A stretch of DNA of 32,070 nt from positions 1 to 32,070 of the forward strand of contig JAUXOM010000128.1 of the NCBI GenBank assembly GCA_030682175.1, read 5' to 3'. Below are positions 10,019 through 31,819 of the stretch, piece after piece. The DNA comes from Rhodocyclaceae bacterium (GTDB taxonomy: Bacteria > Pseudomonadota > Gammaproteobacteria > Burkholderiales > Rhodocyclaceae). Under the pieces are notes generated by a model that had not been told where the DNA came from, did not search any database, and saw nothing but the letters and a program-made list of their open reading frames with translations. Every line of letters starts with the position of its first letter. Within the stretch, counting starts at the first letter, position 1. A program made the position numbers and the translations under genes.

Positions 10019-11520
10019 GCTCTGGAAAAATAGTTGCTGTTGCGCTGGTGGTGGCCATTGCCGCCGCTGCCGGCTACTGGGCCGGTGGCCAATCAAAAGT
10101 CGGCGCTGGCGAGACGGCGAGTGCCGATGCCGCCGCCGCGCCGGGCGGGAAAAAACTGCTGTATTACCGCAATCCGATGGGCCTGCCCGATACCTCGCCG
10201 ACGCCCAAGAAGGACTCGATGGGCATGGATTACATCGCCGTGTATGAGGGCGAGGATGACGCGGGCGGCACCGAGGTGAAAATCAGCACCGCCAAGGTGC
10301 AGAAGCTTGGCGTGCGCGTCGAGGCGGCGAGCCTGCGCGAATTGTCGCGGCCGATACGCGCGGCCGGACGCATCGAGGTTGACGAGCGGCGCTTGCACAC
10401 CATTTCCCCGAAATTCGAAGGCTGGATTGAAAAATTGCACGTCAACTCCACCGGACAGCCGGTGGGGCGTGGCCAACCGCTCTTCGAAGCTTACAGCCCC
10501 GAACTGGTGTCGGCGCAGCGCGAATATCAGGTGGCGGCGCAGGGTCTGGTTGCGCTCAAGGATGCCTCTCCGGAAGCTCAGGCGTCAATGCGGCGCATTG
10601 CCGAGGCGGCACTGACCCGATTGCGGAATTGGGACATCTCGGCGGAACAGATCGAGCGACTGGCGGGAGGAGGCGAGGCCAGGCGCACCTTGACGTTCCG
10701 TGCACCGGCGAGCGGCATTGTGCTGGAGAAGAGGGCGATTGCCGGCATGCGCTTCATGCCGGGCGAGATGCTCTACCAGATCGCCGACATCAGCAGTATC
10801 TGGGTGCTGGCCGACGTCTTCGAGCGCGACATTGGCGCGCTGAAGGTGGGACAGAAGGTCAATGTCGCGATCACCGCTTATCCCGACAAGCTGTTCGCGG
10901 GCAAGATCGCCTACATCTATCCGACCCTCAATGCCGTGACGCGCACGGTGCCGATCCGCGTCGAACTGCCCAATCCGGGCGGCTTGCTGAAGCCGGCGAT
11001 GTATGCCGCCGTGGAAGTCGGCGCTGGCAACACGGTGCCAGTCGTCGCCGTGCCGCTCGCGGCGGTCATCGACAGCGGCACGCGGCAGACGGTGCTGGTG
11101 CAGAAGGAGGAAGGTCGTTTCGAACCCCGCGAGGTGAAGCTCGGCTTGCGCGGCGACGATTACGTCGAGGTCAGGGAGGGCGTCAAGGCCGGCGAGCAGG
11201 TGGTGGTTGCCGCCAACTTCCTGATCGATTCGGAGAGCAACCTCAAGGCGGCACTAGGCGGCATGCAGGATGCGCCGCAGGCCACCGTCAGCCATCATGC
11301 CGTCGGCACGCTCGACGCCGTCGATGCCCAAACCGGTACGGTGCTGGTGACGCACGAGCCGGTCGCCAGCCTCAAGTGGCCGGCCATGACCATGGAATTC
11401 GTACCCGCCAATTCGGCGCTGTTCGCCGACGTGAAGCCGGGAAGCGCCATCCACTTCGAGTTTGTCGAAAGGAAGCCAGGCGAGTGGGTGATCACTAAAC
11501 TCGACAAACAGGTGAAATGA
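10015..11520 (+). CDS. cusB: Periplasmic adaptor of a Cu(I)/Ag(I) efflux system with fused CusF domain
   Basis: CusB links the CusA pump to the CusC channel and accepts metal from CusF. The 501-residue product has one N-terminal membrane segment (about 5-24), a short linker, a heavy-metal-binding domain with YYRNPMGLPDTSPTPKKDSM (50-69), the membrane-fusion barrel-sandwich and beta domains, and a C-terminal CusF-like domain. That domain contains His447, Trp455, Met458 and Met460 in HEPVASLKWPAMTM, all four canonical CusF ligands. The start is GTG at 10015, overlapping the cusC stop (GTGA). Residues about 27-35 (KVGAGETA) are encoded by a dispersed 24-bp repeat, in a flexible linker. The cusA ATG follows one base after the stop. 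Confidence 0.92.
   Translation: MSSGKIVAVALVVAIAAAAGYWAGGQSKVGAGETASADAAAAPGGKKLLYYRNPMGLPDTSPTPKKDSMGMDYIAVYEGEDDAGGTEVKISTAKVQKLGVRVEAASLRELSRPIRAAGRIEVDERRLHTISPKFEGWIEKLHVNSTGQPVGRGQPLFEAYSPELVSAQREYQVAAQGLVALKDASPEAQASMRRIAEAALTRLRNWDISAEQIERLAGGGEARRTLTFRAPASGIVLEKRAIAGMRFMPGEMLYQIADISSIWVLADVFERDIGALKVGQKVNVAITAYPDKLFAGKIAYIYPTLNAVTRTVPIRVELPNPGGLLKPAMYAAVEVGAGNTVPVVAVPLAAVIDSGTRQTVLVQKEEGRFEPREVKLGLRGDDYVEVREGVKAGEQVVVAANFLIDSESNLKAALGGMQDAPQATVSHHAVGTLDAVDAQTGTVLVTHEPVASLKWPAMTMEFVPANSALFADVKPGSAIHFEFVERKPGEWVITKLDKQVK
10096..10119 (+). repeat. 24-bp dispersed repeat, short form, inside cusB
   Basis: The sequence starts AAAGTCGGCG and ends GAGACGGCG, one mismatch from the copies at 14398, 21868 and 30217. 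Here it is read as KVGAGETA in the linker after the membrane segment. Confidence 0.75.
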
Positions 11521-11521
11521 C

Positions 11522-14500
11522 ATGTTGAGTCAAGTCATTGATTGGTCGGCGCGCAACAAGCTGCTGGTATTGCTCGCCACGCTGTTCATCATCATGGGCG
11601 GCGTTTTTGCGGTGCTGAAAACGCCGCTCGATGCCCTGCCCGATCTGTCGGACGTCCAGGTCATCGTTTACGCGGACTATCCGGGCCAGGCGCCGCAGGT
11701 CGTCGAGGATCAGGTGACCTATCCGCTGACCACGGCGCTGCTGGCGGTGCCGAAATCCAAGGTGGTGCGCGGGTTTTCCTTCTTTGGCGCCTCCTTCGTC
11801 TATGTGATCTTCGAGGACGGCACCGACATCTACTGGGCGCGCTCAAGGGTGCTGGAATATCTCAGTACCGTTGCCGGGCGCCTGCCGCCGGGCGTGGCCC
11901 CCAGCCTCGGGCCGGATGCCAGCGGTGTCGGCTGGGTCTATCAGTATGTGGTGCAGGGCGCCAACCACACGCTGGCCGAGCTGCGCACGCTACAGGACTG
12001 GTATTTGCGCTACCAGATCACCAAGGCGCATGGCGTGTCCGAGGTGGCCAGCATCGGTGGTTTCGTCCAGCAGTACCAGGTGACGGTCGACCCGGTGAAG
12101 CTGCGCGCCTATGGCGTGTCGCTGATGACGGTGGCGAATGCCATCCGCAACTCGAACCGCGACGTCGGCGGGCGCGTGGTGGAACTGGCCGAGACCGAAT
12201 ACATGGTGCGCGGCCGCGGCTATCTGCGCGGGCGCAGTGATCTCGAACTGCTGGTGGTGAAAGCCACCAGTGGACAAGGCGGGGGCACGCCGGTGCTGCT
12301 GCGCGACATTGCCCGGGTCGAGCTCGGCCCGGACGAGCGGCGCGGTATCGCCGAACTGAACGGCGAGGGCGAGGTGGTCTCCGGCATCGCCGTGGCGCGC
12401 TACGGCCAGAACGCGCTCGAGGTCATCGACAACATCAAGGAAAAGATCAAGGAGGTTGCCCCCGGTCTGCCGGCGGGCGTGACGATCGAAACGGTTTATG
12501 ACCGTTCGGAACTGATCGAACGCGCCATCGACACGCTGAAGACGACCCTCATCGAGGAAAGCCTGATCATCGCGGCGGTTTGCTTCATTTTCCTGCTGCA
12601 CCTGCGCTCGGCGCTGGTGGCGATCCTCATCCTGCCGGTGGGCGTGCTGATTGCGTTCATCGCCATGCGCCTGCTCGGCATGAATTCCAACATCATGAGC
12701 CTGGCCGGCATCGCGATTGCGCTGGGCACCATGATCGACGCGTCGATCGTGATGGTCGAGAATGCGCACAAACATCTGGAAAGATTGAAGCCTGGCCATG
12801 CCAACGCCGAGCGCGTCGAGGCGATGATTGCTGCCTGTAAAGAAGTCGGCCCGGCGCTGTTTTTCAGCCTGCTGATCATCACCGTGTCATTCCTGCCGGT
12901 GTTCACGCTGGAGGCGCAGGAGGGCCGGCTGTTCGCCCCGCTGGCCTGGACCAAGACCCTGGCGATGGCCGGCGCGGCCGCCCTGTCGGTGACGCTGGTG
13001 CCCGTGCTGATGCTGTTGTTCATTCGCGGCAACATCATGCCCGAGATGAAAAATCCGGTGAATCGCTTCTTTGTCACGATCTACCGTCCGGTGATCGCGC
13101 TGGTGATGCGCTGGAAGCTGACGACGCTGGCGCTGACCGTCGTCATCATGTTGACGGCCATCTGGCCGGCCATGAAACTCGGCAGCGAATTCATGCCGAC
13201 GCTCAACGAGGGCACGCTGTTCTACATGCCGACCGGCCTGCCCGCCATGTCGGTGACCAAGGCGGCGGAACTGCTGCAGACGCAGAACAAGATCATCAAG
13301 AGCTTTCCCGAGGTGGCGTCGGTGATCGGCAAGGCCGGGCGCGCCCAGACAGCGACCGATCCGGCACCGATCGAGATGTTCGAGACGGTGATCAACCTGA
13401 AACCGGAAAAGGAATGGCGCCCCGGCCTGACGGTGGATGGACTGATCGCCGAACTGGACCAGGCCCTGCAGTTCCCCGGCATCGCCAACTCCTGGACGAT
13501 GCCGATCAAGGCGCGCATCGACATGCTGTCCACGGGCATTCGTACGCCGGTCGGCATCAAGGTATTCGGCAAGGATCTCGAAGAGATGGAGCAATTGGCG
13601 CGCGCCATCGAGGCCGTGGTCAAGGAGGTGCCCGGCACCAGTTCGGCCTATGCGGAGCGCATCACCGGCGGCTGGTATCTCGACATCGAGCCTGATCGCG
13701 CGGCGCTGGCGCGTTATGGCATTCTCGTCGGCGACCTGCAGGAGGTGATTGCCACGGCGCTCGGCGGCGAGATGGTGACGACCATGGTCGAAGGCCGCGA
13801 GCGTTTCGGGGTTTCCATCCGCTACCCGCGCGAACTGCGCGATGACCCTGCAAAGATCGCCGCCAACGTGCTGGTGCCGATCATGGCCGAGATGGGCTCG
13901 GCGGCGGCGATGGTGCCGCTCGGGCAGGTGGCCCGAGTGAGCATCGCCAAGGGTGCGCCGTCGATCCGCACCGAGAACTCACTGCTCTCGGCCTATATCT
14001 ACGTCGATATCCGCGAGCGTGACATCGGCTCCTATGTCGCCGCGGCGAAGCGCGCGGTGGCCGACAAGGTGACTTTCCCGCAGGGGAGCTATGTCACCTG
14101 GAGCGGCCAGTTCGAGTACATGGAGCGGGCGCTGGAACGGCTCAAGATCGTCGTGCCGTTCACGCTGCTGCTGATCTTCCTGCTGCTCTATCTCAACTTC
14201 AGGCGGGTGGTCCCGAGCGTGATCGTCATGATCTCGGTGCCGTTTGCGCTGGTGGGCGGGGTCTGGCTGATGTATCTGCTCGGCTACAACCTATCGGTGG
14301 CCGTGGCGGTCGGCTTCATCGCGCTGGCCGGCGTGGCCGCCGAAACCGGCGTGGTGATGCTGATCTACCTCGATCACGCCTGGGAGGCGGCGAAGCAAAA
14401 GTCGGCGCTGGCGGGACGGCGCCCCGACAGCGCCGATCTCTACAAGGCGGTGATGGAAGGCGCGGTGGAGCGCGTGCGGCCGAAGATGATGACCGTGGTG

Positions 14501-14689: not shown

Positions 14690-14718
14690 GGCGAGCGGAG
14701 CGCACAGGGATGCGTGTC

Positions 14719-14744
14719 TGACGTTGACGTCAACGTCAACGTCA
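14719..14744. promoter_or_regulatory. 20-bp perfect palindrome, candidate operator upstream of icmF
   Basis: TGACGTTGACGTCAACGTCA (14719-14738) is a perfect palindrome, followed by a further ACGTCA. It resembles in outline the ACGT-rich palindromes described for LiuR, a MerR-family regulator of branched-chain acyl-CoA genes in Proteobacteria (from memory). TTGACG (14724-14729) and CAAAAT (14747-14752), 17 bases apart, could be a promoter overlapping it. A 119-bp insertion now separates it from icmF. Confidence 0.45.
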
Positions 14745-14769
14745 GCCAAAATCGTCCCCCTGCGCTAAC

Positions 14770-14888
14770 CTAGGGAAGTGCTGAACAAGTCCGGATTCGT
14801 CATTCCGGCGCAAGCCGGAATCCAGTGCTTTCAGACACATGGACACCGGCCTACGCCGGTGTGACGGACTTAATCAGTGTTTCCCTAG
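14770..14888. mobile_element. IS5-like MITE, about 119 bp
   Basis: The ends are inverted repeats: CTAGGGAAGTGCTGAACAAG (from 14770) and, on the minus strand, CTAGGGAAACACTGATTAAG (from 14888), with 18 of 23 bases matching. CTAG at each end fits the CTAR target duplication of the IS5 group, whose ends are of the GGAAGGTGCGAA type (from memory). The interior holds two perfect hairpins: ATTCCGGC-GCAA-GCCGGAAT (14802-14821) and ACACCGGC-CTAC-GCCGGTGT (14843-14862). There is no transposase. Confidence 0.65.
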
Positions 14889-14913
14889 CCTTATATTTCT
14901 GCCGGAGGTAACT

Positions 14914-15009: not shown

Positions 15010-18000
15010 CCGATCTTTCCGTTTCGACCAAGCTTGCCGCTTACAAGCCCAGGCACAAGGTCCGTTTCGTCACGGCGGCCGCGCTGTTCGACGGCCACGA
15101 CGCCTCGATCAACATCATGCGGCGCATTTTGCAGGCGACCGGGGCCGAGGTGATCCATCTGGGCCACAACCGCTCGGTGCAGGAAATCGTCAATGCCGCG
15201 TTGCAGGAAGATGTGCAGGGCATCGCCATCACCTCCTACCAGGGCGGCCATCTCGAATTCTTCAAGTACATGATCGACCTGCTGAAGGCGGGCGGCGGTG
15301 GCGACATCAAGGTATTTGGCGGCGGCGGCGGGGTCATCGTGCCGGCGGAGATCGCCGAACTGCATGCCTATGGCGTGACGCGCGTCTATACGCCGGAAGA
15401 TGGTGCGACGATGGGCCTGCAGGGGATGATCAACGACGTGGTGGCCAACAGCGACTTCGATCTGAAGGCGAGCGTTTCCATCGACGATCTGCGCGGCGGG
15501 AATCATCGCGTGCTGGCGCGGGCCATCACGCAACTGGAGAACGATCCGGGCGGCTCTCTGGCGCAGGCCATCAAAAATGCCGCCGTCCAACCAGTCCCGA
15601 AAAAGGGATTTCCTTCGGTCACGCCGACTTTAGGAATCACCGGCACCGGCGGCGCGGGCAAGTCGAGCCTCACCGACGAGTTGATCCGCCGCTTCCGTCT
15701 CGACCAGGACGATGCGCTCAGGATGGCCATCATCTCCATCGACCCGTCGCGGAAGAGAACCGGCGGCGCGCTGCTGGGCGACCGCATCCGCATGAACGCC
15801 ATCGAGCACCCCAACATCTTCATGCGTTCGCTGGCGACGCGCGATACGGGCAAGGAAATTTCCGCCGCATTGCCCGAGGCAATCGCGGCCTGCAAGCTCG
15901 CCGGCTTCGACCTGGTGATCGTCGAAACTTCCGGCATTGGCCAGGGCGACGCCGCCATCGTGCCGCATGCCGATGCCTCCCTGTATGTGATGACGCCGGA
16001 ATTCGGCGCCGCCTCGCAACTGGAAAAGATCGACATGCTCGACTTCGCCGATTTTGTCGCCATCAACAAGTTCGACCGCAAGGGCGCCGCCGACGCGCTG
16101 CGCGATGTGCGCAAGCAGTACCAGCGCAACCACGAGCGTTTTGGCGAAAGTGCCGAGGCGATGCCCGTGTTCGGCACGCAGGCCAGCCGCTTCAACGACG
16201 ATGGCATCACCGCGCTGTATCAGGCGATTGCCGCTCACTTGCAAACCCTCGGGCTCAAGCTGCAGCCCGGCCTGCTGCCCGTTGTGGCAACGCGCCAGTC
16301 CTCGCAAAGCCGTGCCATCGTGCCGGCGGGCCGGGTCCGTTACCTCGCCGAGATCGCCGAAAGCGTGCGTGGCTATCACCAGCATGTGGACGCACAGGTG
16401 AGCATTGCCCGTGAGCGCCAGAGCCTGCGCGCGGCCAAGGGTATCTTTGACGCTTGCGGCAAACCCGCCACTGATTTTGACGAGCTGATTGCCTGGAAGG
16501 ATGGCCAGCTCGATCCCAAGGCAAAGAAATTGCTCGACCTGTGGCCGGCGACGCGGCAAGCCTATGCCGGCGACGAATATGTGGTGAAGATCCGCGACAA
16601 GGAGATCCGCACTAGCCTGACCTACGAGACGCTTTCCGGCACGAAGGTGCGCAAGGTGGTGCTGCCCCGGTTCGGCGACGAAGGCGAAATCCTGCGCTAT
16701 CTGATGAAGGAAAACGTGCCGGGCAGTTTCCCCTTCACCGCCGGCGTGTTCGCCTTCAAGCGCGAGAACGAGGACCCGACGCGCATGTTCGCCGGCGAGG
16801 GCGATGCCTTCCGCACCAACCGCCGCTTCAAGAAGGTGTCGGCGGGCATGCCGGCCAAGCGTTTGTCCACCGCCTTCGACTCGGTGACGCTGTATGGCTG
16901 CGATCCCGACGAGCGGCCGGACATCTACGGCAAGATCGGCAACTCCGGTGTTTCCATCGCGACGCTCGATGACCTCAAGGTGCTCTACGACGGCTTTGAC
17001 CTGTGCGACCCGGCCACCAGCGTGTCGATGACCATCAATGGCCCCGCACCGATCATTCTGGCCATGTTCTTCAATACCGCCATCGACCAGCAGCTGGCGA
17101 AATTCACGCGCGACAACAGCCGAGAGCCGACCGAGGACGAGGCGGCGAAGATACGCGAGTGGGTGCTCGCCTCCGTGCGTGGCACGGTGCAGGCCGACAT
17201 CCTCAAGGAGGACCAGGGCCAGAACACCTGCATCTTCTCCACCGAGTTCGCATTGAAAATGATGGGCGACATCCAGGAATTCTTTGTGCACAACCAGGTG
17301 AAGAACTTCTATTCGGTGTCGATCTCCGGTTATCACATCGCGGAAGCCGGCGCCAACCCGATTTCCCAGCTCGCCTTCACGCTCGCCAACGGCTTCACCT
17401 ACGTCGAGACTTATCTGGCGCGCGGCATGCACATCGACGACTTCGCGCCCAATCTTTCATTCTTTTTCAGCAACGGCATGGACGCCGAATATACGGTGAT
17501 CGGCCGTGTCGCACGGCGCATCTGGGCGGTGGCGATGAAGAACAAATACGGTGCCAACGAGCGTTCGCAGAAGCTCAAGTACCACGTGCAGACCTCCGGG
17601 CGCAGCCTGCATGCCCAGGAAATGGACTTCAACGACATCCGCACGACATTACAGGCCCTCATTGCCATTTACGACAACTGCAACAGCCTGCACACCAACG
17701 CCTACGACGAGGCGATCACCACGCCGACCGACGCATCGGTGCGGCGCGCCATGGCCATCCAGCTCATCATCAACCGCGAATGGGGCCTGGCCAAAAACGA
17801 GAACCCCAGCCAGGGGGCCTTCGTCATCGACGAGCTGACCGATCTGGTTGAAGAAGCGGTGCTCAAGGAATTCGAAGCCATCGCCGACCGCGGCGGCGTG
17901 CTCGGCGCGATGGAAACCGGCTACCAGCGCGGCAAGATCCAGGAAGAGTCGCTGTATTACGAACACCGCAAGCACGATGGCTCCTATCCCCTGGTCGGCG

Positions 18001-18400: not shown

Positions 18401-19669
18401 ATGTGGCGCCATTTGACGGCCAATTTTGCCGATCTGATCTTCTCCGTTTCGGAGGCGATGGATCTTGCCGATACAGTGCTGGCCGACCACCAGATTCGCA
18501 CCGCCTTCGTGGCAGCCGAACTGGCGCGTGCCGCCGGGCTGGATTTCGAGCAGACCGAACGTTTGATCATCGCCGCGCTGCTGCACGATATCGGCGCGTT
18601 GTCGCCCGAGGCGAAAATCGGTGTACATAGCGGCCTGGATCAACGCTTCGATCCGCACTGCCTGCGTGGCGGCAAGCTGTTGCGCGAAGCGAGCTGGCTG
18701 GTGCCGGCAGCGGCAATTGTGGAATGGCACCATACGCCAATCAAGAAGCATCTGGAAGCCGGCCGGAGTCTGGCCGATTTCGATGTGCTTGGCGCGCAAA
18801 TCGTCTGCCTGGCGGATCACCTTGAGCAGGCCATCCGGCGTGATACTTTCATCCTGCGGCAGGTCGATGAATTGCGCGCAACAGTACACCAGTTTGCCGG
18901 GACGCTGCTCCACGCCGACGTGGTGGCCCTTTTCGATCAAGTTTCGGGCAATGACTGTTTCTGGCTCGAACTGGTCGCGCGCGACCTTGGCCAGCAATTG
19001 CGCAAACGCAACCTGCTGCGTTCGGTCAGCCTCGATCACGCCGCGGCGCGCGCGTTGGCCGGCGTATTCAAGGACATGACCGATTTTCGCGTGGGGTTCA
19101 CGGTGACGCACTCGACGGGCGTTGCCGCGTGTGCCTGCGGCATCGGGGAGGTCCTGGGCCTCGTGGAAAAGGAACTGCAGCAACTCGAACTGGCCGGACT
19201 CGTCCACGACATCGGCAAACTGGTGGTGCCCAATGCCATCTTTTGCAAGCCGGCAAAGTTGACGCCTGAGGAATATGCCGTCATCCGCCAGCATGCTTAC
19301 TGTTCCTATCAGATCCTGTCGCGGGTGCGCGGATTCGAGAAGGTCGCCAAATGGGCGGGCCATCATCATGAACGGCTCGACGGCAGCGGTTATTGCCGAG
19401 GTGCCAAAACGGCGGACCTTGATCTCGGCGCCATAGTGCTCGGCGTGGCGGATACTGCTGTCGCCATGGCCGAACGCAGACCGTACCGGGAGCCGGGTAA
19501 CTCAAGCGCGGTGCTTGGCGAACTGCGCGCGATGGCGGGCAGGGGCTTGCTGGACATTCTTGTCGTCGAGGCGCTGGCCGACAATTACCCGTCGATCTCT
19601 GGCCGTATTCAGGCGGCTCGGGCAGAAGTTGAAACGCGCTACCGAAATCACTACGCGATGATCAGCTAG
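18401..19669 (+). CDS. Tandem HD-domain protein with degenerate HD-GYP signature
   Basis: The 422-residue cytoplasmic protein has two HD-type halves. The first has LLHDIGALS (HD at 62-63) and a second His-rich site, EWHHTP. The second has THSTG, LVHDIGKL (HD at 269-270) and HHHERLDGSGYCRG (321-334). The last motif is the HD-GYP signature with GYP changed to GYC. HD-GYP proteins hydrolyse cyclic di-GMP or related dinucleotides using two or three metal ions. The metal ligands of the second half look intact, so activity is possible. No receiver, GAF or membrane domain is present. No clear ribosome site precedes the ATG. The 122-base gap after icmF suggests separate transcription. A cyclic-di-GMP role is inferred from family only. 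Confidence 0.8.
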   Translation: MWRHLTANFADLIFSVSEAMDLADTVLADHQIRTAFVAAELARAAGLDFEQTERLIIAALLHDIGALSPEAKIGVHSGLDQRFDPHCLRGGKLLREASWLVPAAAIVEWHHTPIKKHLEAGRSLADFDVLGAQIVCLADHLEQAIRRDTFILRQVDELRATVHQFAGTLLHADVVALFDQVSGNDCFWLELVARDLGQQLRKRNLLRSVSLDHAAARALAGVFKDMTDFRVGFTVTHSTGVAACACGIGEVLGLVEKELQQLELAGLVHDIGKLVVPNAIFCKPAKLTPEEYAVIRQHAYCSYQILSRVRGFEKVAKWAGHHHERLDGSGYCRGAKTADLDLGAIVLGVADTAVAMAERRPYREPGNSSAVLGELRAMAGRGLLDILVVEALADNYPSISGRIQAARAEVETRYRNHYAMIS

Positions 19670-19882
19670 CCATGCGCCAAGCCGCCTCAAGCATGGCGTA
19701 GCCAGGGACGCGGAGCCGCATCGCGGCGAACCTTCGTCACCCCCGCCCGGGCGGGGGTTGGGGGGAGGGGGCCCTGGCCATGCGCCGAGCCGCCTCAAGC
19801 ATGGCGTAGCCAGGGACGCGGAGCCGCATCGCGGCGAACCATCGTCACCCCCGCCCGGGCGGGGGCTGGGGGGAGGGGGCCA
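19669..19882. repeat. Tandem duplication of a 108-bp unit carrying C-rich hairpin repeats
   Basis: Two direct copies with a period of 108 bases start at 19669 and 19777 with GCCATGCGCC and differ at only a few positions (CAAG/CGAG, CTTCG/CATCG, GGTTGG/GGCTGG). Each ends with the palindrome CCCCCGCCCGGGCGGGGG and a G-rich run, a variant of the C-rich hairpin repeat. The second copy overlaps the 3' end of rlhA and supplies its stop codon. Confidence 0.85.
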
Positions 19883-21809
19883 AGTTCTCTGCCGGGCTGG
19901 CAAGGACGTGTTTCTTGATCCGGCCGACGACGTGCATCTCGCAGGCCTTGCAATCGAAGCGCAGCGTCAGTCGCTCGGTGCCATTCACCAGCGTCATCGG
20001 TTCGGCGCGCACCTGCCCCTGCACGCCGGTCACGCCCTTGGCCTGATGCGGGCACAGGTTGAAGGCGTGGCGCAGGCAGTGCTTGGTGATCATCAGCGAG
20101 ACTTCGCCCCTTGCCTCGTGCGTTTCGTAGGCGGCCTCGATCAGCTGAACGCCGTGTTTTGCATAGAAGGTCCGCGCCGCCTGGTTAAAAACGTTGGCGA
20201 GGTAGCTCAGCGAGGTTTCCGGGTAGGGCGTCGGCGGCAGCCCGGCGGGGCGGCGCAAGATCCGCGTATACGCCGCCAGGCGGGCGGCTTCAAGTTGCGC
20301 GACCGCGTCGCGGCGTAGTTGGTTGAGCGTTGAGTTCGGCACGAACCAGGGCTGGCGGCAATCGATGCTCAGCTCATCCAGAACGAAATCGGTATTGCCC
20401 AGTCGGCCGAGTTGCGTGCGCAGATTGGCAGCCGCTTCTTCCGCCTGTCGGGCCGGCTGCTTGGTGCTGGCGATGGCGGCGGTGGCGTGGCTGCCGTCGC
20501 CATCGCGCAGGGTCAGCGCGAAGCCGTCGTCGGTCTCGGCAAATAACGCAGTGAGCGGGATGCGCCGCTTGGCGGATTCTTTGGTAAGCGCCTGCTCCCA
20601 GGTATGGTCGCGGTTGCGGCTGATCAGGGTGCCGGCCCGCAGTCCGGGCAGATTGGCCAGGGCTTCGTTCGGCCAGATGCGCCAGTTTGACGCCGCCACT
20701 TGCTCGACGCGGTTGGCCTGCACGCCAACCACCGTGCGTTTGTTCAGCCAGGTCAGCCCGTCGCCATTGGCGAGCGGTTCGCTGGCGGTGATGTCAAAGA
20801 AATCGGTGCCGGTCTTTGTCACTTCGCCGAGCGGCAGTCCGACATAGCCGGGCGAGTCGAAGGCGCCGATGTGCTGTGGATCGGCCTGGCGGCCGTGGGT
20901 GAAGTAGTCGGTCGCGCCGCGGTGAAAGGTCTTGTCGGGATTGGGGGTGAACAGCAATTGCGTGCGGCCGCTGGAGGCCGGGGCGAGTTCCGGACGTGCG
21001 CCGAAGAGTTTGTCGAGCAGCTGGCGATAGTGGCCGGTGATGTTCTTGACGTAGGCCGCGTCCTTGTAGCGCCCTTCGATCTTGAAACTCTGCACGCCGG
21101 CGTCGATCAATGCGGCCAGGTTGGCGCTCTGGTCGTTGTCCTTCAGCGACAGCAGGTGCTTTTCAAAGGCGACGACGCGGCCCTCCTTGTCCTGCAAGGT
21201 GTAGGGCAGGCGGCAGGCCTGCGAACAGTCGCCGCGATTGGCGCTGCGGCCGGTCTGGGCATGGCTGATGTAGCACTGGCCGGAAAAGGCCACGCACAGC
21301 GCGCCATGGACGAAGTGCTCGATGACGATGTCGTCCGGCACGGCGGCGCGCACGGCGGCGATATCTTTCAGGCTGAGTTCGCGCGCCAGCACCAGCTGCG
21401 AAAAGCCGGCAGCGGCGAGGAAGCGCGCCTTGGCCGGCGTGCGGATGTCGCACTGCGTCGAAGCGTGCAGGTCGATGGGCGGCAGGTCGAGCTCCAGGAT
21501 GCCCATGTCCTGGACGATGAGGGCATCGACGCCGGCGTCGTAACAGTCCTGGATCAGGCGCCGCGCCGGCTCCAGTTCGCTGTCGGCGAGAATGGTGTTG
21601 AGCGTGACATAGATGCGTGCATGAAAGCGGTGCGCATGGTCGACAAGACGCGCGATCTCGCCCATGGCATTGCCCGCGTTGTGTCGCGCGCCGAAGGCCG
21701 GGCCGCCGATATAGACGGCATCCGCACCATGCAAAATCGCCGCGTGGCCAATCTCCGCAGTGCGGGCGGGCGCGAGCAGTTCAATGCGGCGGGGCGGGTT
21801 AATCATCAT
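19845..21809 (-). CDS. rlhA: 23S rRNA hydroxylase, peptidase U32 family
   Basis: RlhA hydroxylates C2501 of 23S rRNA in E. coli. The 654-residue protein follows it along its length: ELLAPARTAEIGHAAILHGA, QDMGILELDLPPIDLHAST, and the U32 signature with four Cys in GALCVAFSGQCYISHAQTG and RSANRGDCSQACRLPY, followed by KDNDQSANLAALIDAGVQSF and ITKHCLRHAFNLCP. The ending CKACEMHVVGRIKKHVL is conserved. After that the protein runs into a dispersed repeat and ends APSPQPPPGRG in place of the usual tail. GGAGG of another repeat copy serves as ribosome site; the second ATG (21806) is better spaced than the first. The extension from TTG at 21830 (MGRPGGG) is repeat sequence. Confidence 0.9.
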   Translation of the reverse strand: MMINPPRRIELLAPARTAEIGHAAILHGADAVYIGGPAFGARHNAGNAMGEIARLVDHAHRFHARIYVTLNTILADSELEPARRLIQDCYDAGVDALIVQDMGILELDLPPIDLHASTQCDIRTPAKARFLAAAGFSQLVLARELSLKDIAAVRAAVPDDIVIEHFVHGALCVAFSGQCYISHAQTGRSANRGDCSQACRLPYTLQDKEGRVVAFEKHLLSLKDNDQSANLAALIDAGVQSFKIEGRYKDAAYVKNITGHYRQLLDKLFGARPELAPASSGRTQLLFTPNPDKTFHRGATDYFTHGRQADPQHIGAFDSPGYVGLPLGEVTKTGTDFFDITASEPLANGDGLTWLNKRTVVGVQANRVEQVAASNWRIWPNEALANLPGLRAGTLISRNRDHTWEQALTKESAKRRIPLTALFAETDDGFALTLRDGDGSHATAAIASTKQPARQAEEAAANLRTQLGRLGNTDFVLDELSIDCRQPWFVPNSTLNQLRRDAVAQLEAARLAAYTRILRRPAGLPPTPYPETSLSYLANVFNQAARTFYAKHGVQLIEAAYETHEARGEVSLMITKHCLRHAFNLCPHQAKGVTGVQGQVRAEPMTLVNGTERLTLRFDCKACEMHVVGRIKKHVLASPAENLAPSPQPPPGRG

Positions 21810-21867
21810 GCCTCCGCCGGGCCGCCCCAAGGAGGCAGCGAGTCGGGGTTACGAGCGTGGGGGCCAT
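21810..21867 (-). repeat. Dispersed repeat providing the rlhA ribosome site
   Basis: On the minus strand it reads TATGGCCCCCACGCTC, then CTGCCTCCTTGGGGCGGCCC and GGCGGAGGC directly before the rlhA ATG. The first part matches 14913-14928 and the second part matches 24836-24864. A 22-residue frame starting MAPTLVTPTR runs through it and overlaps the first codons of rlhA, without a ribosome site of its own. Confidence 0.7.
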
Positions 21868-21891
21868 AAAGTCGGCGCTGGCGGGACGGCG
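21868..21891 (+). repeat. 24-bp dispersed repeat, short form, intergenic
   Basis: Starts AAAGTCGGCG and ends GGGACGGCG; identical to the copy inside cusA at 14398-14421. It lies between rlhA and the Crp/Fnr gene, next to another repeat. Confidence 0.8.
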
Positions 21892-24756: not shown

Positions 24757-24867
24757 CCCCATCCCCCCAACCCCCTTCCCGAGGAAGGGGGTGACTTTGG
24801 TTCAGCCGCTGGCGCGGCTTCCGGTTTCTGAACTGCTGCCTCCTTGGGGCGGCCCGGCGGAGGCAGC
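24757..24867 (+). repeat. Composite repeat between the acyl-CoA synthetase and livG
   Basis: It joins a C-rich hairpin repeat, with the perfect 9-bp stem CCCCCTTCC (24771-24779) and GGAAGGGGG (24783-24791), to CTGCCTCCTTGGGGCGGCCC plus GGCGGAGGCAGC. The second part matches the copy upstream of rlhA and ends at the livG ATG, for which its GGAGG is the ribosome site. Confidence 0.7.
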
Positions 24868-25650
24868 ATGACCCGACAAATCGGCGAGGTCATCCTCGAT
24901 CTCCAGAATGTTTCCCTCTCCTTCGGCGGGGTGAATGCCCTGACCGACATTTCCTTTGATGTGCGCGAACATGAAATTCGCGCCATCATCGGCCCCAACG
25001 GCGCGGGCAAGAGCTCGATGCTCAATGTCATCAACGGCGTTTACCGGCCACAGGCTGGCGAAATCATCCTGCGCGGCGAGCATTTCCGGCAGATGAATCC
25101 CTACAAGGCCGCCTGCGCCGGGATTGCCCGCACTTTCCAGAATATCGCGCTGTTCAAGGGCATGAGCGTGCTCGACAACATCATGACCGGACGCAACCTG
25201 AAGATGAAGGCGAACATCTTCCAGCAGGCGTTCTGGATGGGAGCGGCCCGGCGCGAGGAGCTGGAGCATCGTGCCAAGGTCGAGGAAATCATCGACTTTC
25301 TCGAAATCCAGCACATCCGCAAGACGCCGGTGGGCCGCTTGCCGTACGGCCTGCAAAAGCGCGTCGACCTGGCGCGGGCGCTGGCGATGGAACCGCAGAT
25401 ACTGCTGCTCGACGAGCCGATGGCCGGCATGAACATCGAGGAAAAACAGGACATGAGCCGCTTCATCCTCGACGTCAATGATCAGATGGGTACCACCATC
25501 GTGCTGATCGAGCACGACATGGGTGTGGTGATGGATGTATCCGATCGCGTCGTGGTGCTCGACTACGGCAAGAAAATTGGCGATGGTTCGCCGGACGAGG
25601 TGCGCGGCAATCCCGAAGTCATCAGCGCCTATCTCGGCGCCAGCCACTGA
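24868..25650 (+). CDS. livG: Branched-chain amino acid-type ABC transporter ATPase (LivG-like)
   Basis: One of two ATPases of a Liv-type (HAAT family) importer. The 260-residue protein has Walker A GPNGAGKSS (42-50), a Q-loop in ARTFQNIALFKGMSV, a degenerate signature LPYGLQKRVDLARAL, and Walker B ILLLDEPMAGMN. The C-terminal AYLG is typical of LivG. The ATG at 24868 is preceded by repeat-borne GGAGG; the extension from TTG at 24844 (MGRPGGGS) is repeat sequence. livH follows after 19 bases. The cargo need not be an amino acid; Liv-type importers also carry aromatic and other organic acids, and two acyl-CoA ligases flank this set. Confidence 0.9.
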   Translation: MTRQIGEVILDLQNVSLSFGGVNALTDISFDVREHEIRAIIGPNGAGKSSMLNVINGVYRPQAGEIILRGEHFRQMNPYKAACAGIARTFQNIALFKGMSVLDNIMTGRNLKMKANIFQQAFWMGAARREELEHRAKVEEIIDFLEIQHIRKTPVGRLPYGLQKRVDLARALAMEPQILLLDEPMAGMNIEEKQDMSRFILDVNDQMGTTIVLIEHDMGVVMDVSDRVVVLDYGKKIGDGSPDEVRGNPEVISAYLGASH

Positions 25651-25669
25651 CGGAAAAGGACACGACGAC

Positions 25670-26764: not shown

Positions 26765-27841
26765 ATGATTTACAGGGAAAACGGTCAATTCAAGACCTCC
26801 TACGCGGCGGATCAGCAGATCTTCCCCATCCTCCAGGATCGCTGGGCGATTCTCGGCATCCTCGCCTTCGCATTCATTGCGGTGCCGCTGTTGGCCGACG
26901 AATACCTGTTCCGCGCCATCCTGATCCCGTTCCTGATCCTGTCGCTGGCGGCATTGGGCGTCAATTTGCTGGTCGGCTATTGTGGCCAGATCACTCTGGG
27001 TGCAGGGGCATTCATGGCAGTGGGTGCTTACGCAGCCTACAATTTCTTTGTCCGCGTGGATGACATGCCCCTGCTGGCCGCCCTGCTTCTGGGTGGTGCG
27101 ACTTCGGCGGCGGTTGGCGTGGTGTTCGGCGTACCCAGCTTGCGGGTGCGCGGCCTGTACCTCGCTGTTGCTACCCTGGCGGCGCAGTTCTTCTGGGACT
27201 GGGCCTTCCTGCGCATCAAGTGGTTCACCAACGACTCTTCATCCGGCTCGGTGTCGGTGTCGAACCTGAGCGTCTTCGGTTGGGATCTGAAATCGCCGAC
27301 GGATGTCTATCTGTTCTGCTTGGCTGTCCTGGTGGTGTTCGCCCTGCTAGCTAAAAACATGACGCGCGGCGCCATTGGCCGGCAGTGGATGGCGATCCGC
27401 GACATGGACGTTGCCGCCGAGGTGATCGGCATCCGGCCGATGTACGCCAAATTGTCGGCCTTTGCCGTCAGTTCCTTCTTCCTCGGCGTGGCCGGCGGGC
27501 TGTGGGGTTTCGTGCACCTTGGCGCCTGGGAGCCGGCGGCCTTCTCGCTCGACCGTTCCTTCCAGTTGTTGTTCATGGTCATCATCGGCGGCCTCGGCTC
27601 GATCATGGGCAGTTTCTTCGGCGCCGCCTTCATCGTCATCCTGCCGATTTTCCTCAACCAGATGTTGCCCTGGCTGGGTGATCTGGTCGGGGTGTCGATT
27701 TCCACCGCCGGCGTCTCCCATGCCGAAATCATGATTTTCGGCGCGCTCATCGTGTTCTTCCTGATTGTCGAACCGCACGGCATTGCCCGCCTGTGGTCGA
27801 CGGCCAAGGAGAAGCTCAGACTGTGGCCGTTCCCGCACTGA
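26765..27841 (+). CDS. livM: Liv-type ABC transporter permease (LivM-like)
   Basis: Second permease of the importer, 358 residues. The N-terminus is a cytoplasmic segment of about 25 residues, followed by nine or so hydrophobic segments. LivM landmarks are LSLAALGVNLLVGYCGQITL with GAGAFMAVGAYAAY, VPSLRVRGLYLAVATLAAQF, RDMDVAAEVIGIRPMYAKL (coupling loop) and GGLGSIMGSFFGAAFIVILP. It ends soon after FLIVEPHGIARLW, as in the family. The ATG at 26765 is the first in frame; no strong ribosome site precedes it because the upstream DNA is repeat. The gap to livK is 70 bases. Confidence 0.92.
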   Translation: MIYRENGQFKTSYAADQQIFPILQDRWAILGILAFAFIAVPLLADEYLFRAILIPFLILSLAALGVNLLVGYCGQITLGAGAFMAVGAYAAYNFFVRVDDMPLLAALLLGGATSAAVGVVFGVPSLRVRGLYLAVATLAAQFFWDWAFLRIKWFTNDSSSGSVSVSNLSVFGWDLKSPTDVYLFCLAVLVVFALLAKNMTRGAIGRQWMAIRDMDVAAEVIGIRPMYAKLSAFAVSSFFLGVAGGLWGFVHLGAWEPAAFSLDRSFQLLFMVIIGGLGSIMGSFFGAAFIVILPIFLNQMLPWLGDLVGVSISTAGVSHAEIMIFGALIVFFLIVEPHGIARLWSTAKEKLRLWPFPH

Positions 27842-27911
27842 CGGGAACGCGCAGGGATGTTTGTGTTTCAAGGCAGCACCATAACCATCATCAATAAAAG
27901 GAGAGAGATCA

Positions 27912-29261
27912 ATGAACATGCGCAAATATGCACTCGCCGCTTCACTGGCGGCGATTGGCCTGTCATTTACCCTGACAGCGCCGGTCCATGCCCAGGCCAA
28001 GGGCAAGCAGGCCCAGGAGCAGTTCTTCCCCGTGCTGGTCTATCGCACAGGGGCCTATGCACCGAACGGCGCACCCTGGGCCAACGGCTTTGTCGACTAC
28101 ATCAAGCTGGTCAACGCCACTGGCGGCATCAACGGCGTCAAGGCCACCTTCGAGGAATGCGAAACCGGCTATGCCACCGACCGCAGTGTCGAGTGCTATG
28201 AACGGCTGAAGAACAAGGGCGGCGGCGCGACGGCGTTCCAGTCGCTGTCCACGGGCGCGACCTTCGCGCTGACCGAAAAGGCGCCGGTAGACAAGATTCC
28301 GCTGATCACCGCCGGCTACGGCCGCAGCGAATCCGCGAACGGCGCGGTGTTTACCTGGAACTTCCCGCTGCTGGGCACCTACTGGGTGGGCGCGGATGTC
28401 CTCATCCAGCACATCGCCAAGAAGGAAGGCGGCTTCGACAAGCTGAAGGGCAAGAAAATCTCGCTGGTTTATCACGACAGCCCGTATGGCAAGGAGCCGA
28501 TCCCGCTGTTGCAGGAGCGCGCCAAGATGCATGGCTTCGACCTGTCGCTGCTGCCGGTTGCCCATCCGGGCGTCGAACAGAAATCCACCTGGCTGCAAAT
28601 CCGCCAGAACCGGCCGGATTACGTGCTGCTGTGGGGCTGGGGCGTGATGAACTCCACCGCGCTCAAGGAAGCCCAGGCCACCGGCTATCCGCGCGAGAAG
28701 ATGTATGGCATCTGGTGGGCGGGTGCCGAACCGGACGTGAAGGACGTCGGTGAAGCCGCCAAGGGCTACAACGCGCTGGCGATGCAGCATGGCGCCGAGC
28801 CGGATGCCAAGGTGGTCAAGGACATTCTGGCCAAGCTGCACGCCAAGAATGAAGGCACCGGCCCGAAGGACGAGGTTGGTTCGGTGCTCTACATGCGCGG
28901 CCTGATTTCCGCCATGCTCGGCGTCGAAGGCGTCAAGCGGGCGCAGGAGCGCTACGGCAAGGGCAAGACCATGACCGGCGAGCAAGTGCGCTGGGGCCTG
29001 GAGAACCTCGACCTCACCCAGCAGAAGCTCGATGCGATGGGCTTTGCCGGCGTGATGCGACCGGTACAGACCTCCTGCCTCGATCACATGGGTTCGAGCT
29101 GGGTGCGTGTGCATACCTGGAACGGCAGCAAGTGGCAGTTCAGCTCCGACTGGTACCAGGCTGACGAGAAAGTCATTCGTCCGATGGTGATGCATGCCTC
29201 GCTGAAGTATGCGGAAGAGAAGAAGATCACTCCCCGCACGCCCGAGCAGTGCAAGCAATAA
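27912..29261 (+). CDS. livK: Periplasmic solute-binding protein of the Liv-type transporter
   Basis: The 449-residue binding protein has a signal peptide (1-27, ending APVHA before QAKG) and a type I periplasmic-binding fold: FPVLVYRTGAYAPNGAPWAN, YIKLVNATGGINGVKATFEE, and KISLVYHDSPYGKEPIPLLQ. It is longer than LivK/LivJ of E. coli (about 370) and belongs to a divergent subgroup. Four Cys in the mature part (Cys83, Cys95, one in QTSCLDH, one in PEQCKQ) could form two disulfides. The AAGGAGAGAG ribosome site is the strongest in the cluster, fitting the excess of binding protein over permease. The ligand cannot be read from sequence. A strong hairpin follows the gene. Confidence 0.87.
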   Translation: MNMRKYALAASLAAIGLSFTLTAPVHAQAKGKQAQEQFFPVLVYRTGAYAPNGAPWANGFVDYIKLVNATGGINGVKATFEECETGYATDRSVECYERLKNKGGGATAFQSLSTGATFALTEKAPVDKIPLITAGYGRSESANGAVFTWNFPLLGTYWVGADVLIQHIAKKEGGFDKLKGKKISLVYHDSPYGKEPIPLLQERAKMHGFDLSLLPVAHPGVEQKSTWLQIRQNRPDYVLLWGWGVMNSTALKEAQATGYPREKMYGIWWAGAEPDVKDVGEAAKGYNALAMQHGAEPDAKVVKDILAKLHAKNEGTGPKDEVGSVLYMRGLISAMLGVEGVKRAQERYGKGKTMTGEQVRWGLENLDLTQQKLDAMGFAGVMRPVQTSCLDHMGSSWVRVHTWNGSKWQFSSDWYQADEKVIRPMVMHASLKYAEEKKITPRTPEQCKQ

Positions 29262-29277
29262 GCTGAATCAGCGGTCC

Positions 29278-29299
29278 GGGGTCCGCCGCGGCGGGCCCC
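29278..29299 (+). terminator. Hairpin between livK and livF, possible partial terminator
   Basis: GGGGTCCGCCG (29278-29288) can pair with CGGCGGGCCCC (29289-29299), with one G-T wobble; the middle bases form the loop. No T-run follows, so it is more likely to protect the livK mRNA or weaken read-through than to end transcription fully. Confidence 0.45.
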
Positions 29300-29338
29300 C
29301 AAGCTGAAACCGATAGCATCGACAAGCGAAGAACGCCC

Positions 29339-30151
29339 ATGACTACCGCCAACCTGCTCCTCAACGTCAACAGCATCGAGGTGATCTACAACCACGTGAT
29401 CCTCGTCCTGAAGGGCGTGTCGTTTTCCGTGCCCGAGCGCGGCATTGTCGCCTTGCTGGGCGGCAACGGCGCGGGCAAGACCACCACCCTGCGTGCGGTC
29501 AGCAACCTGCTTGCCGGCGAACGCGGCGCGGTCACCAAGGGTTCCATCGAGTTGCGCGGCGAGCGCATCGAGGCGCTGACGCCGGCCGATCTGGTCAAGC
29601 GCGGCGTCATCCAGGTGATGGAGGGCCGCCACTGTTTCGGCCATCTGACCATCGAAGAAAACTTGCTCACGGGGTCGTACACCCGCACCGACGGCAAGGC
29701 GGCGGTGGCCGCGACTCTGGAAAAGGTTTACAACTATTTCCCGCGACTGAAAACCCGGCGCACCAGTCAGTCTGCCTATACCTCCGGGGGCGAGCAGCAG
29801 ATGACCGCCATCGGCCGCGCCCTGATGGCCAATCCGAGCATGGTATTGCTCGACGAGCCCTCGATGGGCCTTGCCCCGCAGATTGTGGACGAGGTGTTTT
29901 CCATCGTGAAAGATCTGAATCAGAAGGAAGGCGTGACTTTCCTGCTGGCCGAACAGAACACCAACATGGCATTGCGCTACGCCGATTTCGGCTACATCCT
30001 CGAAAACGGCCGCGTCGTCATGGAAGGCCAGGCCGAAGACCTGCGCAACAACGAGGACGTCAAGGAGTTCTACCTCGGCCTGTCCTCCGCCGGTCGCAAG
30101 AGCTTCCGCGAGGTCAAGCATTACAGAAGGCGCAAGCGCTGGCTGGCGTGA
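29339..30151 (+). CDS. livF: Liv-type ABC transporter ATPase (LivF-like)
   Basis: Second ATPase of the importer, 270 residues. Walker A is GGNGAGKTT (41-49), the Q-loop region is QVMEGRHCFGHLTIEENLL, the signature is SGGEQQMTAIGRAL and Walker B is MVLLDEPSMGLAPQI, followed by LLAEQNTNMALRYAD with the switch-like end. The length exceeds E. coli LivF (237): about 20 extra basic residues (SFREVKHYRRRKRWLA) form a C-terminal tail. The ATG at 29339 is the usual family start position. It is the last transport gene; a 341-base repeat-filled gap separates it from the PaaK-like ligase. Confidence 0.9.
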   Translation: MTTANLLLNVNSIEVIYNHVILVLKGVSFSVPERGIVALLGGNGAGKTTTLRAVSNLLAGERGAVTKGSIELRGERIEALTPADLVKRGVIQVMEGRHCFGHLTIEENLLTGSYTRTDGKAAVAATLEKVYNYFPRLKTRRTSQSAYTSGGEQQMTAIGRALMANPSMVLLDEPSMGLAPQIVDEVFSIVKDLNQKEGVTFLLAEQNTNMALRYADFGYILENGRVVMEGQAEDLRNNEDVKEFYLGLSSAGRKSFREVKHYRRRKRWLA

Positions 30152-30216
30152 TGCCTGGAAAAGCATTTCACCACGGCGAACACGGCGACACGGCACAAAT
30201 CCCTATTGAATCGCCG

Positions 30217-30240
30217 AAAGTCGGCGCTGGCAGGACGGCG
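30217..30240 (+). repeat. 24-bp dispersed repeat, short form, intergenic
   Basis: Starts AAAGTCGGCG and ends AGGACGGCG; one mismatch from the copies at 14398 and 21868. It lies between two other repeats. Confidence 0.75.
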
Positions 30241-30270
30241 CTTTAGACAGGTCGTGCGGCCTCTTTGATT

Positions 30271-30440
30271 GATCCTGGAAAAAGCAGTTCACCACGGAGG
30301 ACACGGTGATCACGGAGGAAAAACCAGGCGTTACGAAATAAGAGCATGTCGCCCGTTGGGTGTGCCTGAATTTTGTGTACTTGCGCCGTTGCTCCGTGTC
30401 CTCTGTGCTCTCTGTGGTGCGAATTGAGGTTTTTAGGTTG
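30271..30440. repeat. Dispersed repeat, copy B (uninterrupted)
   Basis: The reverse complement matches copy A (135-474) on both sides of the MITE-like insertion there, and runs straight through the insertion point (GACACGGAGCAACGG then CGCAAGTACACAA). It is therefore the empty-site form of that repeat. Confidence 0.8.
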
Positions 30441-30492
30441 ATAGCGCATTGCGTCGTGCCATCGTGTTCGCCGTGGTTTGAATGAGGTTTTA

Positions 30493-31731
30493 ATGATGAA
30501 TGACCACTTTGATTCCCTCGAAACCCGCCCCCCGGCCGAGCGCGAGGCCGCGTTGCTGGCGCGCCTGCCGCAGCAGGTCGCCCATGCCAAGGCGAACACG
30601 GCGTATTTCGCCGCCACCCTGCGCGAAGTCGATCCGGCCAGCATCAACTCGCGCGCGGCACTGGCGCAACTGCCGGTGCTGCGCAAGCATGAACTGATCG
30701 ACTTGCAGAAAAAACAGCGCCCCTTCGGCGGCCTGGCGGCATCAGGCTGGGGCCGTCTCGGCCGGGTGTTTTCCTCGCCGGGGCCGATCTACGAACCCGA
30801 AGGGCGCAGCGCCGACTACTGGCGCACCGCGCGGGCGCTCTATGCGGCTGGTATTCGCCCTGGCGATCTGGTGCATAACAGTTTTTCGTATCACATGACG
30901 CCGGGCGGCTGGTTGCTCGAGGCGGGCGCACAGGCGCTCGGCTGCACGGTCTTTCCGGGCGGCGTCGGCCAGACCGAACAACAGGTGCAGGCGATGGCCG
31001 ACCTGCAACCCAATGCCTATGTCGGCACCCCATCCTTCCTGCGCATCCTGCTCGAGAAGGCCGATGCACTTGGCCTGCAGATCCCCTCGCTGACCAAGGC
31101 GCTGGTCTCCGGCGAGGCTTTCCTGCCGCCGGTGCGCGAAGCCTTGCTGGCGCGCGGCGTCCATGGCTACCAGGCCTATGCCACCGCCGACCTCGGGCTG
31201 ATCGCCTACGAAACACCCGCCCGTGAAGGCTTGGTTGTCGACGAAGAGATTATTCTCGAGATCGTTCGCCCGGGCAGCGGCGAGCCTTTGCCCGCAGGCG
31301 AGGTCGGCGAAGTCGTGGTCACCCTGCTCGGCGCCGACTATCCGCTGCTGCGCTTTGGTACCGGCGATCTGTCGGCCATCATGCCGGGCACCTCGCCGTG
31401 CGGCCGCACCAACCTGCGCATCAAGGGCTGGCTGGGGCGCGCCGATCAGACCACCAAGGTCAAGGGCATGTTCGTGCACCCCGAGCAGGTCGCGGCGGTG
31501 GTGAAACGCCATCCGCAACTCTCCCGCGCGCGACTGGTGGTGACCAACCCCGACAGCTCCGATGCCATGACCCTGCACTGTTGCGTGAGCGCCGGCACGG
31601 GCGATGCGGCGCTGGCCGCGGCGATTGCCGATTCGCTGCGCGAACTGACCAAGTTGCGTGGCGCGGTGGTCTTTGTTGATAGCCTGCCCAATGACGGCAA
31701 GGTCATCAGCGACGAACGAAAGTACGACTGA
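30493..31731 (+). CDS. PaaK-like adenylate-forming enzyme (phenylacetate-CoA ligase family)
   Basis: The 412-residue protein has the architecture of phenylacetate-CoA ligase: an N-terminal helix region with LPVLRKHELIDLQ, then SYHMTPGGWLLEAGAQALGC, TPSFLRILLEKADALG, KALVSGEAFLPPVREALLAR and DYPLLRFGTGDLSAIMPGTS. The C-terminal domain has RIKGWLGRADQTTKVKGMFV. The usual ATP loop SSGTTGKP is replaced by SSPGPIYEPEG, a feature of this subgroup. The substrate is unknown; an aromatic or branched acid supplied by the adjacent Liv transporter is an inference. GAGG lies five bases before the first of two ATGs (30493 and 30496); the frame from TTG 30478 is less likely. Confidence 0.82.
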   Translation: MMNDHFDSLETRPPAEREAALLARLPQQVAHAKANTAYFAATLREVDPASINSRAALAQLPVLRKHELIDLQKKQRPFGGLAASGWGRLGRVFSSPGPIYEPEGRSADYWRTARALYAAGIRPGDLVHNSFSYHMTPGGWLLEAGAQALGCTVFPGGVGQTEQQVQAMADLQPNAYVGTPSFLRILLEKADALGLQIPSLTKALVSGEAFLPPVREALLARGVHGYQAYATADLGLIAYETPAREGLVVDEEIILEIVRPGSGEPLPAGEVGEVVVTLLGADYPLLRFGTGDLSAIMPGTSPCGRTNLRIKGWLGRADQTTKVKGMFVHPEQVAAVVKRHPQLSRARLVVTNPDSSDAMTLHCCVSAGTGDAALAAAIADSLRELTKLRGAVVFVDSLPNDGKVISDERKYD

Positions 31732-31771
31732 CTGCGTAGCACCGCCCGTATTTGTCCGGCGGGCCGGCTAG

Positions 31772-31819
31772 CGCCGTCTCGCCAGTCCCACGGGGATTCC
31801 CTACGGTCACGCCGACTTT
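31772..31819 (-). repeat. Dispersed repeat, long form, intergenic
   Basis: On the minus strand it begins AAAGTCGGCG, continues TGACCGTAGGGAATCCCCGT and GGGA, and ends CTGGCGAGACGGCG. Removing the 24 middle bases gives the short form exactly. It matches the long copy inside icmF. The rest of the 31732-31850 gap holds only a small CCGGC hairpin. Confidence 0.75.

Follow-up and report, generated by a model that had tools for sequence, protein, structure and literature searches.

The best-known cases of abundant uptake sequences come from two families, the Pasteurellaceae and the Neisseriaceae (Bakkali 2007, PMC1939737). The uptake signal sequences (USS) have been argued to be non-insertions by a test like the one used below (Redfield et al. 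2006, PMC1626085), and a gradual drive by mismatch load has been described (Bakkali 2007). A genome-wide shift of dialect between clades is known for uptake sequences (Frye et al. 2013, PMC3630211), and the DNA uptake sequences (DUS) of Neisseria have been argued to arise by recombination, with few intermediates, in permissive regions (Treangen et al. 2008, PMC2397512). Here we consider a 24-bp dispersed repeat, AAAGTCGGCGCTGGCGGGACGGCG, found in a stretch of 32,070 nucleotides from a Rhodocyclaceae bacterium (contig JAUXOM010000128.1 of assembly GCA_030682175.1), hereafter the window. The original prediction, made from the window's sequence, took this repeat for a mobile or spreading short element that adds peptide segments to proteins, among them CusB, CusA and IcmF. 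Judging from the comparisons below, the repeat is mostly not a peptide-inserting mobile element; it appears to be an uptake-signal-like motif with dialects, on which lies a layer of hairpin cassettes for which the insertion idea holds.

We think it probable that this Rhodocyclaceae-type family has, in the repeat, a bipartite sequence resembling a DNA uptake signal, comparable to the USS of Haemophilus and the DUS of Neisseria. The motif pattern matches DNA uptake sequences in three respects: mostly non-inserted copies, a gradual drive, and dialects. Uptake would be its cause. A type IV pilus DNA receptor (a ComP- or ComN-like minor pilin) would bind the two boxes of the motif, kin DNA carrying them would be preferentially taken up and recombined, and the uptake bias, acting on chance near-matches, would drive copies into permissive sites. 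Hairpin cassettes would form a second layer, lodging in existing copies.

Abundance, architecture and dialects

The window's genome (G000; 3.49 Mb, 153 contigs) matches the 24-mer with at most 3 mismatches at 567 places, 296 forward and 271 reverse, and the reversed pattern at none. The genome-wide search proposed with the original prediction therefore returned a number above chance, and this strong over-representation on both strands is as in the DUS/USS class. In a 432-kb sample of G000, the copies with 0 to 6 mismatches number 8, 31, 24, 16, 4, 14 and 5; none of five permuted motifs matched with 5 or fewer mismatches, and the reversed motif matched once, at 4. The top over-represented words in G000 are AAAGTCGG and its neighbours. 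Neither the Haemophilus/Actinobacillus USS core (AAGTGCGGT or ACAAGCGGT) nor the Neisseria DUS (GCCGTCTGAA or a named dialect) is the over-represented word in this genome. In part of the sample (L139-L145), CTTTCTTGACAGCCGG is a further over-represented word.

A Chi-like signal, or another one orienting recombination or replication, would likewise be abundant, genome-wide and present on both strands. We find this exceedingly improbable. Signals of the Chi type measure about 8 bp and show a strand bias along replichores, whereas the forward matches in the related genome G002 (100 listed of 134) are spread evenly, at 30, 21, 22 and 27 per 0.5 Mb, counted by eye, across the first 2 Mb. Forward and reverse counts in G002 were 86/98 and 134/160, in which we see no strand bias.

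The motif is built of two constant boxes, AAAGTC and ACGGC, whose starts lie 18 bp apart, with N12 between them (GGCGCTGGCGGG in G000). In 400 kb of G000, AAA[GC]TC and ACGGC occur 52 times at spacing 12, and 0 or 1 time at each of nine other spacings. The N12 pairing gave no match in samples of 13 other genomes (16-140 kb each), G006 included; in some of these samples different words were repeated. Between clades the motif varies as dialects that run through whole genomes: G026 has T as ninth base, G002 and G017 end in A, and G028 has AAAGTCAGTCCCnGCGGnACGGCG, first detected as its most over-represented 10-mer. The head AAAGTCAGTC is found in G028 and G114 (in G114, in most of the matches listed), AAAGTCGACGCTGG in G086, with variation among 26 matches listed, and AAAGTCAGCCGT in many of the matches listed for G188; G114 and G188 are the two genomes, of a set of six, whose matches were listed. 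In G017 (L291, L292) we also noted 78-bp arrangements of motif, partial inverted motif and motif.

The question arises as to whether the copies descend from one another. Among 16 copies sampled in G028, 15 are distinct, both boxes being fixed by the search, and the mean identity of the middle region is 0.68, versus 0.81 in G000. Such diversity of the middle fits independent origins under recognition better than copying.

The pattern AAAGTC-N12-ACGGC was counted in 150 genomes of the family, representing 68 genera: 21 genomes of 10 genera hold 63 to 677 copies and the remaining 129 hold 0 to 26, the reversed control giving at most 11 per genome. Motif-bearing genera are not uniform (2 copies in G124 of genus g47; 12 and 26 in G107 and G154 of g90). 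When up to 3 mismatches are allowed, 18 of the 19 genomes of the window's genus are rich in the motif (184-660 copies), G006 (87% complete) being the only one without it. Outside the genus, G019 has 510 copies and G026 738, and the other 40 of the 61 genomes searched have 0 to 5. Among the named records listed with the exact word (at least 80), most are Rhodocyclaceae and Sulfuritalea metagenome-assembled genomes; the window's organism may be a Sulfuritalea-like member of the Rhodocyclaceae. In other genera of the family, the over-represented words differ: TGTGGGAGCGGCG, TTTCGCGGGAATGAC and GTGTCCTTGG in G023 (L330-L336), G031 (L359-L362) and G024 (L381).

Copies at individual sites

Five copies, defined as matches to AAAGTCGGCGCTGGCGGGACGGCG with at most 3 mismatches, lie in the window; 100 shuffles gave 0 matches. 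They are listed here with the decayed, long and head-only forms.

852 to 868, minus strand: head-only match of 17 bp, in glmU
2598 to 2621, plus strand: short motif with 2 mismatches, in glmS (IVGADGTA)
8327 to 8340, minus strand: head-only copy, upstream of the cus operon
10096 to 10119, plus strand: short motif with 1 mismatch, in the N-terminal linker of cusB, read KVGAGETA
11014 to 11037, plus strand: decayed motif with 5 mismatches, in cusB
14398 to 14421, plus strand: short motif, exact, in cusA, read KSALAGRR
15581 to 15631, minus strand: long form of 51 bp, the motif with a 27-bp hairpin cassette within, in icmF, the gene being on the other strand
21868 to 21891, plus strand: short motif, exact, outside the long reading frames scored as coding
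30217 to 30240, plus strand: short motif with 1 mismatch, within the gap from 30151 to 30478
31772 to 31819, minus strand: long form of 48 bp, the motif with a 24-bp hairpin cassette within, after the gene ending at 31731

All four short copies of the original prediction were recovered as described (identical at 14398 and 21868, one mismatch each at 10096 and 30217); the glmS copy was absent from its list. The long form at 31772-31819 stands as given, and the other, placed at 15582-15631, starts one base earlier. The peptides read from the CusB, CusA and IcmF copies were right, and NCBIfam agrees with the three gene identities: CusA/CzcA and IcmF score above cut-off, and CusB falls below the CusB-family model's own cut-off and above that for RND adaptor subunits.

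If the short form had inserted into genes, the residues that it encodes should be missing from orthologues. In G000, 35 protein segments carry a copy in the best-scoring frame, 31 of them short copies; 25 segments were searched, and all 35 aligned to fetched loci, in G006, G023 and G031, three genomes with no motif match within 3 mismatches. With each pairing of a site and a genome counted once, and identity of at least 50% required, there are 37 comparisons, from 17 of the 31 short-copy sites. In 30 of them the copy is free of gaps, and at 12 sites this is true of every comparison. LeuC, LeuD, TrpB, MutL, GlmS and an ABC-F ATPase align residue by residue to motif-free relatives; in LeuD, for instance, SRRPTNADFVLN in G000 is aligned with SKRPLNPDFVLN, and the GlmS copy is gap-free against both G023 and G006. 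Motif-free orthologues thus have residues at the same positions at most sites, where the short form did not behave as the peptide-adding mobile element originally proposed.

The same picture was obtained at the DNA level for ten orthologous sites in two regions; these are the sites, out of an initial 13, at which three or more species were represented. Among 89 alleles, 60 carry the motif, 4 the motif with a cassette, 12 have 4-8 mismatches, 8 are motif-free and of the same length, and 5 show small gaps; in this tally the cassette label of G013 follows a loose rule, and the 8 mismatches of the G018 cusA allele come from a shifted frame (12 by alignment). No allele 21-27 bp shorter is present among the 89. 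These comparisons show that, at most sites compared, the short copies in genes came about through substitutions that left the length unchanged, and not through insertion. Third-position conservation inside the motif is modestly above the rest of the gene (97/109 versus 0.70 in cusA, with 49 of 1007 windows as high; 137/169 versus 0.65 in cusB, with 33 of 421 as high), and we place no weight on it.

The IcmF site offers a graded series at fixed length. G006, G002, G016 and G017 are motif-free, G004 and G007 have partial motifs with 6 and 5 mismatches, and G005, G010 and G013 have the motif with 3, 2 and 1 mismatches, at equal length. G000 has the motif with the 27-bp hairpin cassette inside, which adds 9 residues; of 12 other genomes, 9 are without the cassette. 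In G003 and G014 the linker is longer and includes a motif copy, G009 is without the motif, and the G018 stretch yielded no alignment at this site. The claim that the long form adds a peptide therefore holds for the 27 bases in IcmF, although the cassette sits in a motif shared by G005, G010 and G013.

In the CusB linker (10096), the alleles of nine of 10 genomes are 24 bp long, with 1-5 mismatches, and that of G009 is a 48-bp long form; linker length differs among congeners, and G010 has two neighbouring copies. At the second cusB site (11014), the orthologous motif has 1-3 mismatches in 8 of 12 genomes, and all 12 alleles are 24 bp long. The cusA site (14398) carries the motif at no more than 2 mismatches in 8 of 10 genomes; G004 carries a 60-bp cassette inside it, and G018 has the same length with 12 mismatches and no motif, which contradicts the idea of an extra segment in CusA. 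Upstream of the cus operon (8327), the motif has 2-3 mismatches in G001, G013 and G012, and is cassette-bearing in G004. Of the orthologue alignment suggested for the three proteins, the IcmF cassette thus came out as extra, and the short-form residues, at most sites, did not.

The long form is then the motif with a hairpin cassette lodged within it. In the G000 sample, the GG[AG]AATCCC-GGGACT hairpin pattern has 12 matches, each placed between a motif head (badly decayed in one case) and a CTG..tail; the TGAAATGCCCCG-GGGTA pattern has 11, every one of them inside a motif tail or beside another such unit. In G004 (L166), a 60-bp GC-rich hairpin cassette occurs inside the motif twice, in cusA and upstream of the cus operon. 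Cassette sizes are 24-27, 21 or 60 bp, and few such inserts were seen in samples of G002, G017 and G026. These placements and the site comparisons indicate that cassettes enter existing motifs.

Weighing the readings

Insertion of a mobile short element, of the Rickettsia palindromic type or of the repetitive extragenic palindromic (REP) type with REP-associated tyrosine transposases (RAYT), was the starting hypothesis, and was set aside as the main reading on the protein alignments and the site series. It would account for the many near-identical copies, the hairpin long forms, the 9 extra IcmF residues, the variable length of the CusB linker, the paired copies of G010, and the gaps and the one site with 8 extra residues described below. 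In addition, G000 has three Y1_Tnp genes, and a motif copy lies no more than 1 kb from every one of them, for which we roughly estimate a chance of 1 in 20 at mean density. However, most sites align gap-free, which for the short form largely contradicts this reading; g11 copies vary in the middle between the boxes, which is unexpected from copying; and Y1_Tnp is found in 7 of 20 motif genomes versus 27 of 41 others. Neither G002 (3 contigs) nor G017 (1 contig), both motif-bearing and rated 100% complete, has a Y1_Tnp match. We therefore hold in-frame insertion of a mobile element to be highly unlikely. A RAYT source of the motif was not supported, 13 of the 20 motif genomes being without a Y1_Tnp match.

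Alternatively, the motif may serve a protein that organises the chromosome or binds DNA for another purpose (nucleoid, segregation, global regulator), being selected as its binding site and evolving in place. In-place origin, constant boxes and dialects are expected alike for any protein site. The genomic setting also lends it something: with a rough gene caller, 72% of the 432-kb sample is called coding and about 28% is not, whereas of the 79 copies with at most 3 mismatches, 44 are coding, 34 non-coding and 1 straddling. In favour of the uptake signal we count that the coding copies occupy all six frames, with 15, 10, 10 and 6 in the four that avoid Arg/Trp-rich peptides (41 of 44), against 2 and 1 in the remaining, Arg/Trp-rich frames. 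As for the protein site, the forward copies listed show no polarity over the first 2 Mb of G002, and hundreds of 24-bp consensus copies, many in housekeeping enzymes, would be unusual for regulatory sites. Moreover, a shift of dialect from clade to clade is a known behaviour of uptake sequences (Frye et al. 2013, PMC3630211). We consider such a protein site unlikely.

An uptake signal supposes competence. Among 20 genomes rich in the g1-type motif, ComEC is found in 19 and a pilin of the ComP_DUS family in 18, so that these parts of the machinery are there, though they do not discriminate. As markers both genes fail, being also present in most motif-free genomes.

Several observations weigh against an uptake signal that arises in place. 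Gaps are commoner inside the copies, where 7 of 37 comparisons show one, than elsewhere in these alignments, where 8 of 381 equally wide control windows do, and at a HtpX-like site, which provides two of the seven gapped comparisons, G000 has 8 extra residues relative to two relatives. In a looser pairwise count, with a low penalty for gaps, 5 of 577 pairs differed by -24/-25 bp (193 of the 577 were gapped, 69 of these with a net difference of zero). ComEC (55/61) and ComP_DUS-family pilins (53/61) occur equally often in genomes that lack the motif, among them G006, and a ComP_DUS match is absent from 2 of the 20 motif genomes. Perfect copies in the 432-kb sample are fewer than single-mismatch ones (8 versus 31), the reverse of the pattern given for the shorter USS and DUS cores by Redfield et al. 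(PMC1626085). The density, about 1 per 6 kb, is below that of DUS in N. meningitidis and N. gonorrhoeae, for which Frye et al. (PMC3630211) give roughly 1900. Finally, locus L151 (C25 of G000; 20 kb, lower GC of 0.55), with Mu-like portal, terminase and transposase genes, has no copy, and neither has L152 next to it, with nusA, infB, truB and pnp, so that these copy-free 40 kb are only half prophage, the rest including core genes. The enrichment of gaps could be explained by permissive sites or by a minority of insertions; for it we slightly lowered our confidence in the uptake signal and slightly raised that in insertion.

Other repeats were noted in the window. One, CACCGTGTCCTCCGTGGTGAA, has near-identical inverted copies at 349-463 and 30280-30395, near both window ends (43 nt at 98% and 78 nt at 86% identity). 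A 108-bp unit is duplicated in tandem at 19666-19881, with 96% identity. A GGGCCGCCCCAAGG-type repeat has inverted copies (95%) at 21803-21839 and 24835-24871; its 12-mers are among the most over-represented of G000, and at four places in the G000 sample a sequence like it follows a AAAGTCGGCG-type head.

Comparison with known systems

No earlier account of the motif was found in the open-licence literature on Rhodocyclaceae, Sulfuritalea, Rhodocyclales and Azoarcus (titles and abstract starts), and next to nothing on competence in these environmental bacteria in the open-licence literature. A more specific proposal seems to us evenly balanced between true and false: that a separate, further lineage of self-DNA uptake signals exists in a single betaproteobacterial family, across 10 or more of its genera, with a receptor contacting the two boxes and tolerating a dialect middle, and with hairpin cassettes that specifically colonise the signals as landing sites and add peptides. 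If true, this new lineage, with at least five dialects and motif-free sister genomes, would allow the origin, spread and shift of such signals to be studied in an independent replicate; it would point to competence in environmental bacteria, and uptake signals would be seen to carry a new kind of passenger, the cassettes inside the motif.

The Rickettsia palindromic elements are defined by in-frame insertions missing from orthologues. The HtpX-like site excepted, the short form does not show this, and the IcmF cassette alone fits. The likeness is that a hairpin cassette can add an in-frame peptide; the difference is that the 24-mer is mostly non-inserted, and that cassettes of 21-60 bp lodge in pre-existing motifs. 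With REP elements and their RAYT transposases, the motif shares its short length, dispersal, hairpin long forms and copies near all three Y1_Tnp genes of G000. Unlike them, its in-gene copies mostly arise in place, and the expected tie to a Y1 transposase does not appear as a positive link across genomes.

Neisseriaceae DUS have clade dialects, abundance and presence both in and between genes in common with our motif, and reverse-complementing the tail box ACGGC yields GCCGT, with which the DUS GCCGTCTGAA begins (Treangen et al. 2008, PMC2397512). They differ in being compact 10-12-mers of another family, whereas the present motif is a sparser 24-bp bipartite one with a putative receptor. By contrast with what Treangen et al. 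argue for Neisseria, intermediates are present here (12 of 89 alleles); the enrichment of gaps agrees with permissive regions.

Pasteurellaceae USS belong to another family and have another sequence, with AT-rich tracts where the present, putative uptake motif has ACGGC as its second box. They resemble it in having hundreds of copies, many of them in genes and mostly non-inserted, and a long multi-segment motif; the AAGT and CGG of their core AAGTGCGGT are common to the motif head described here.

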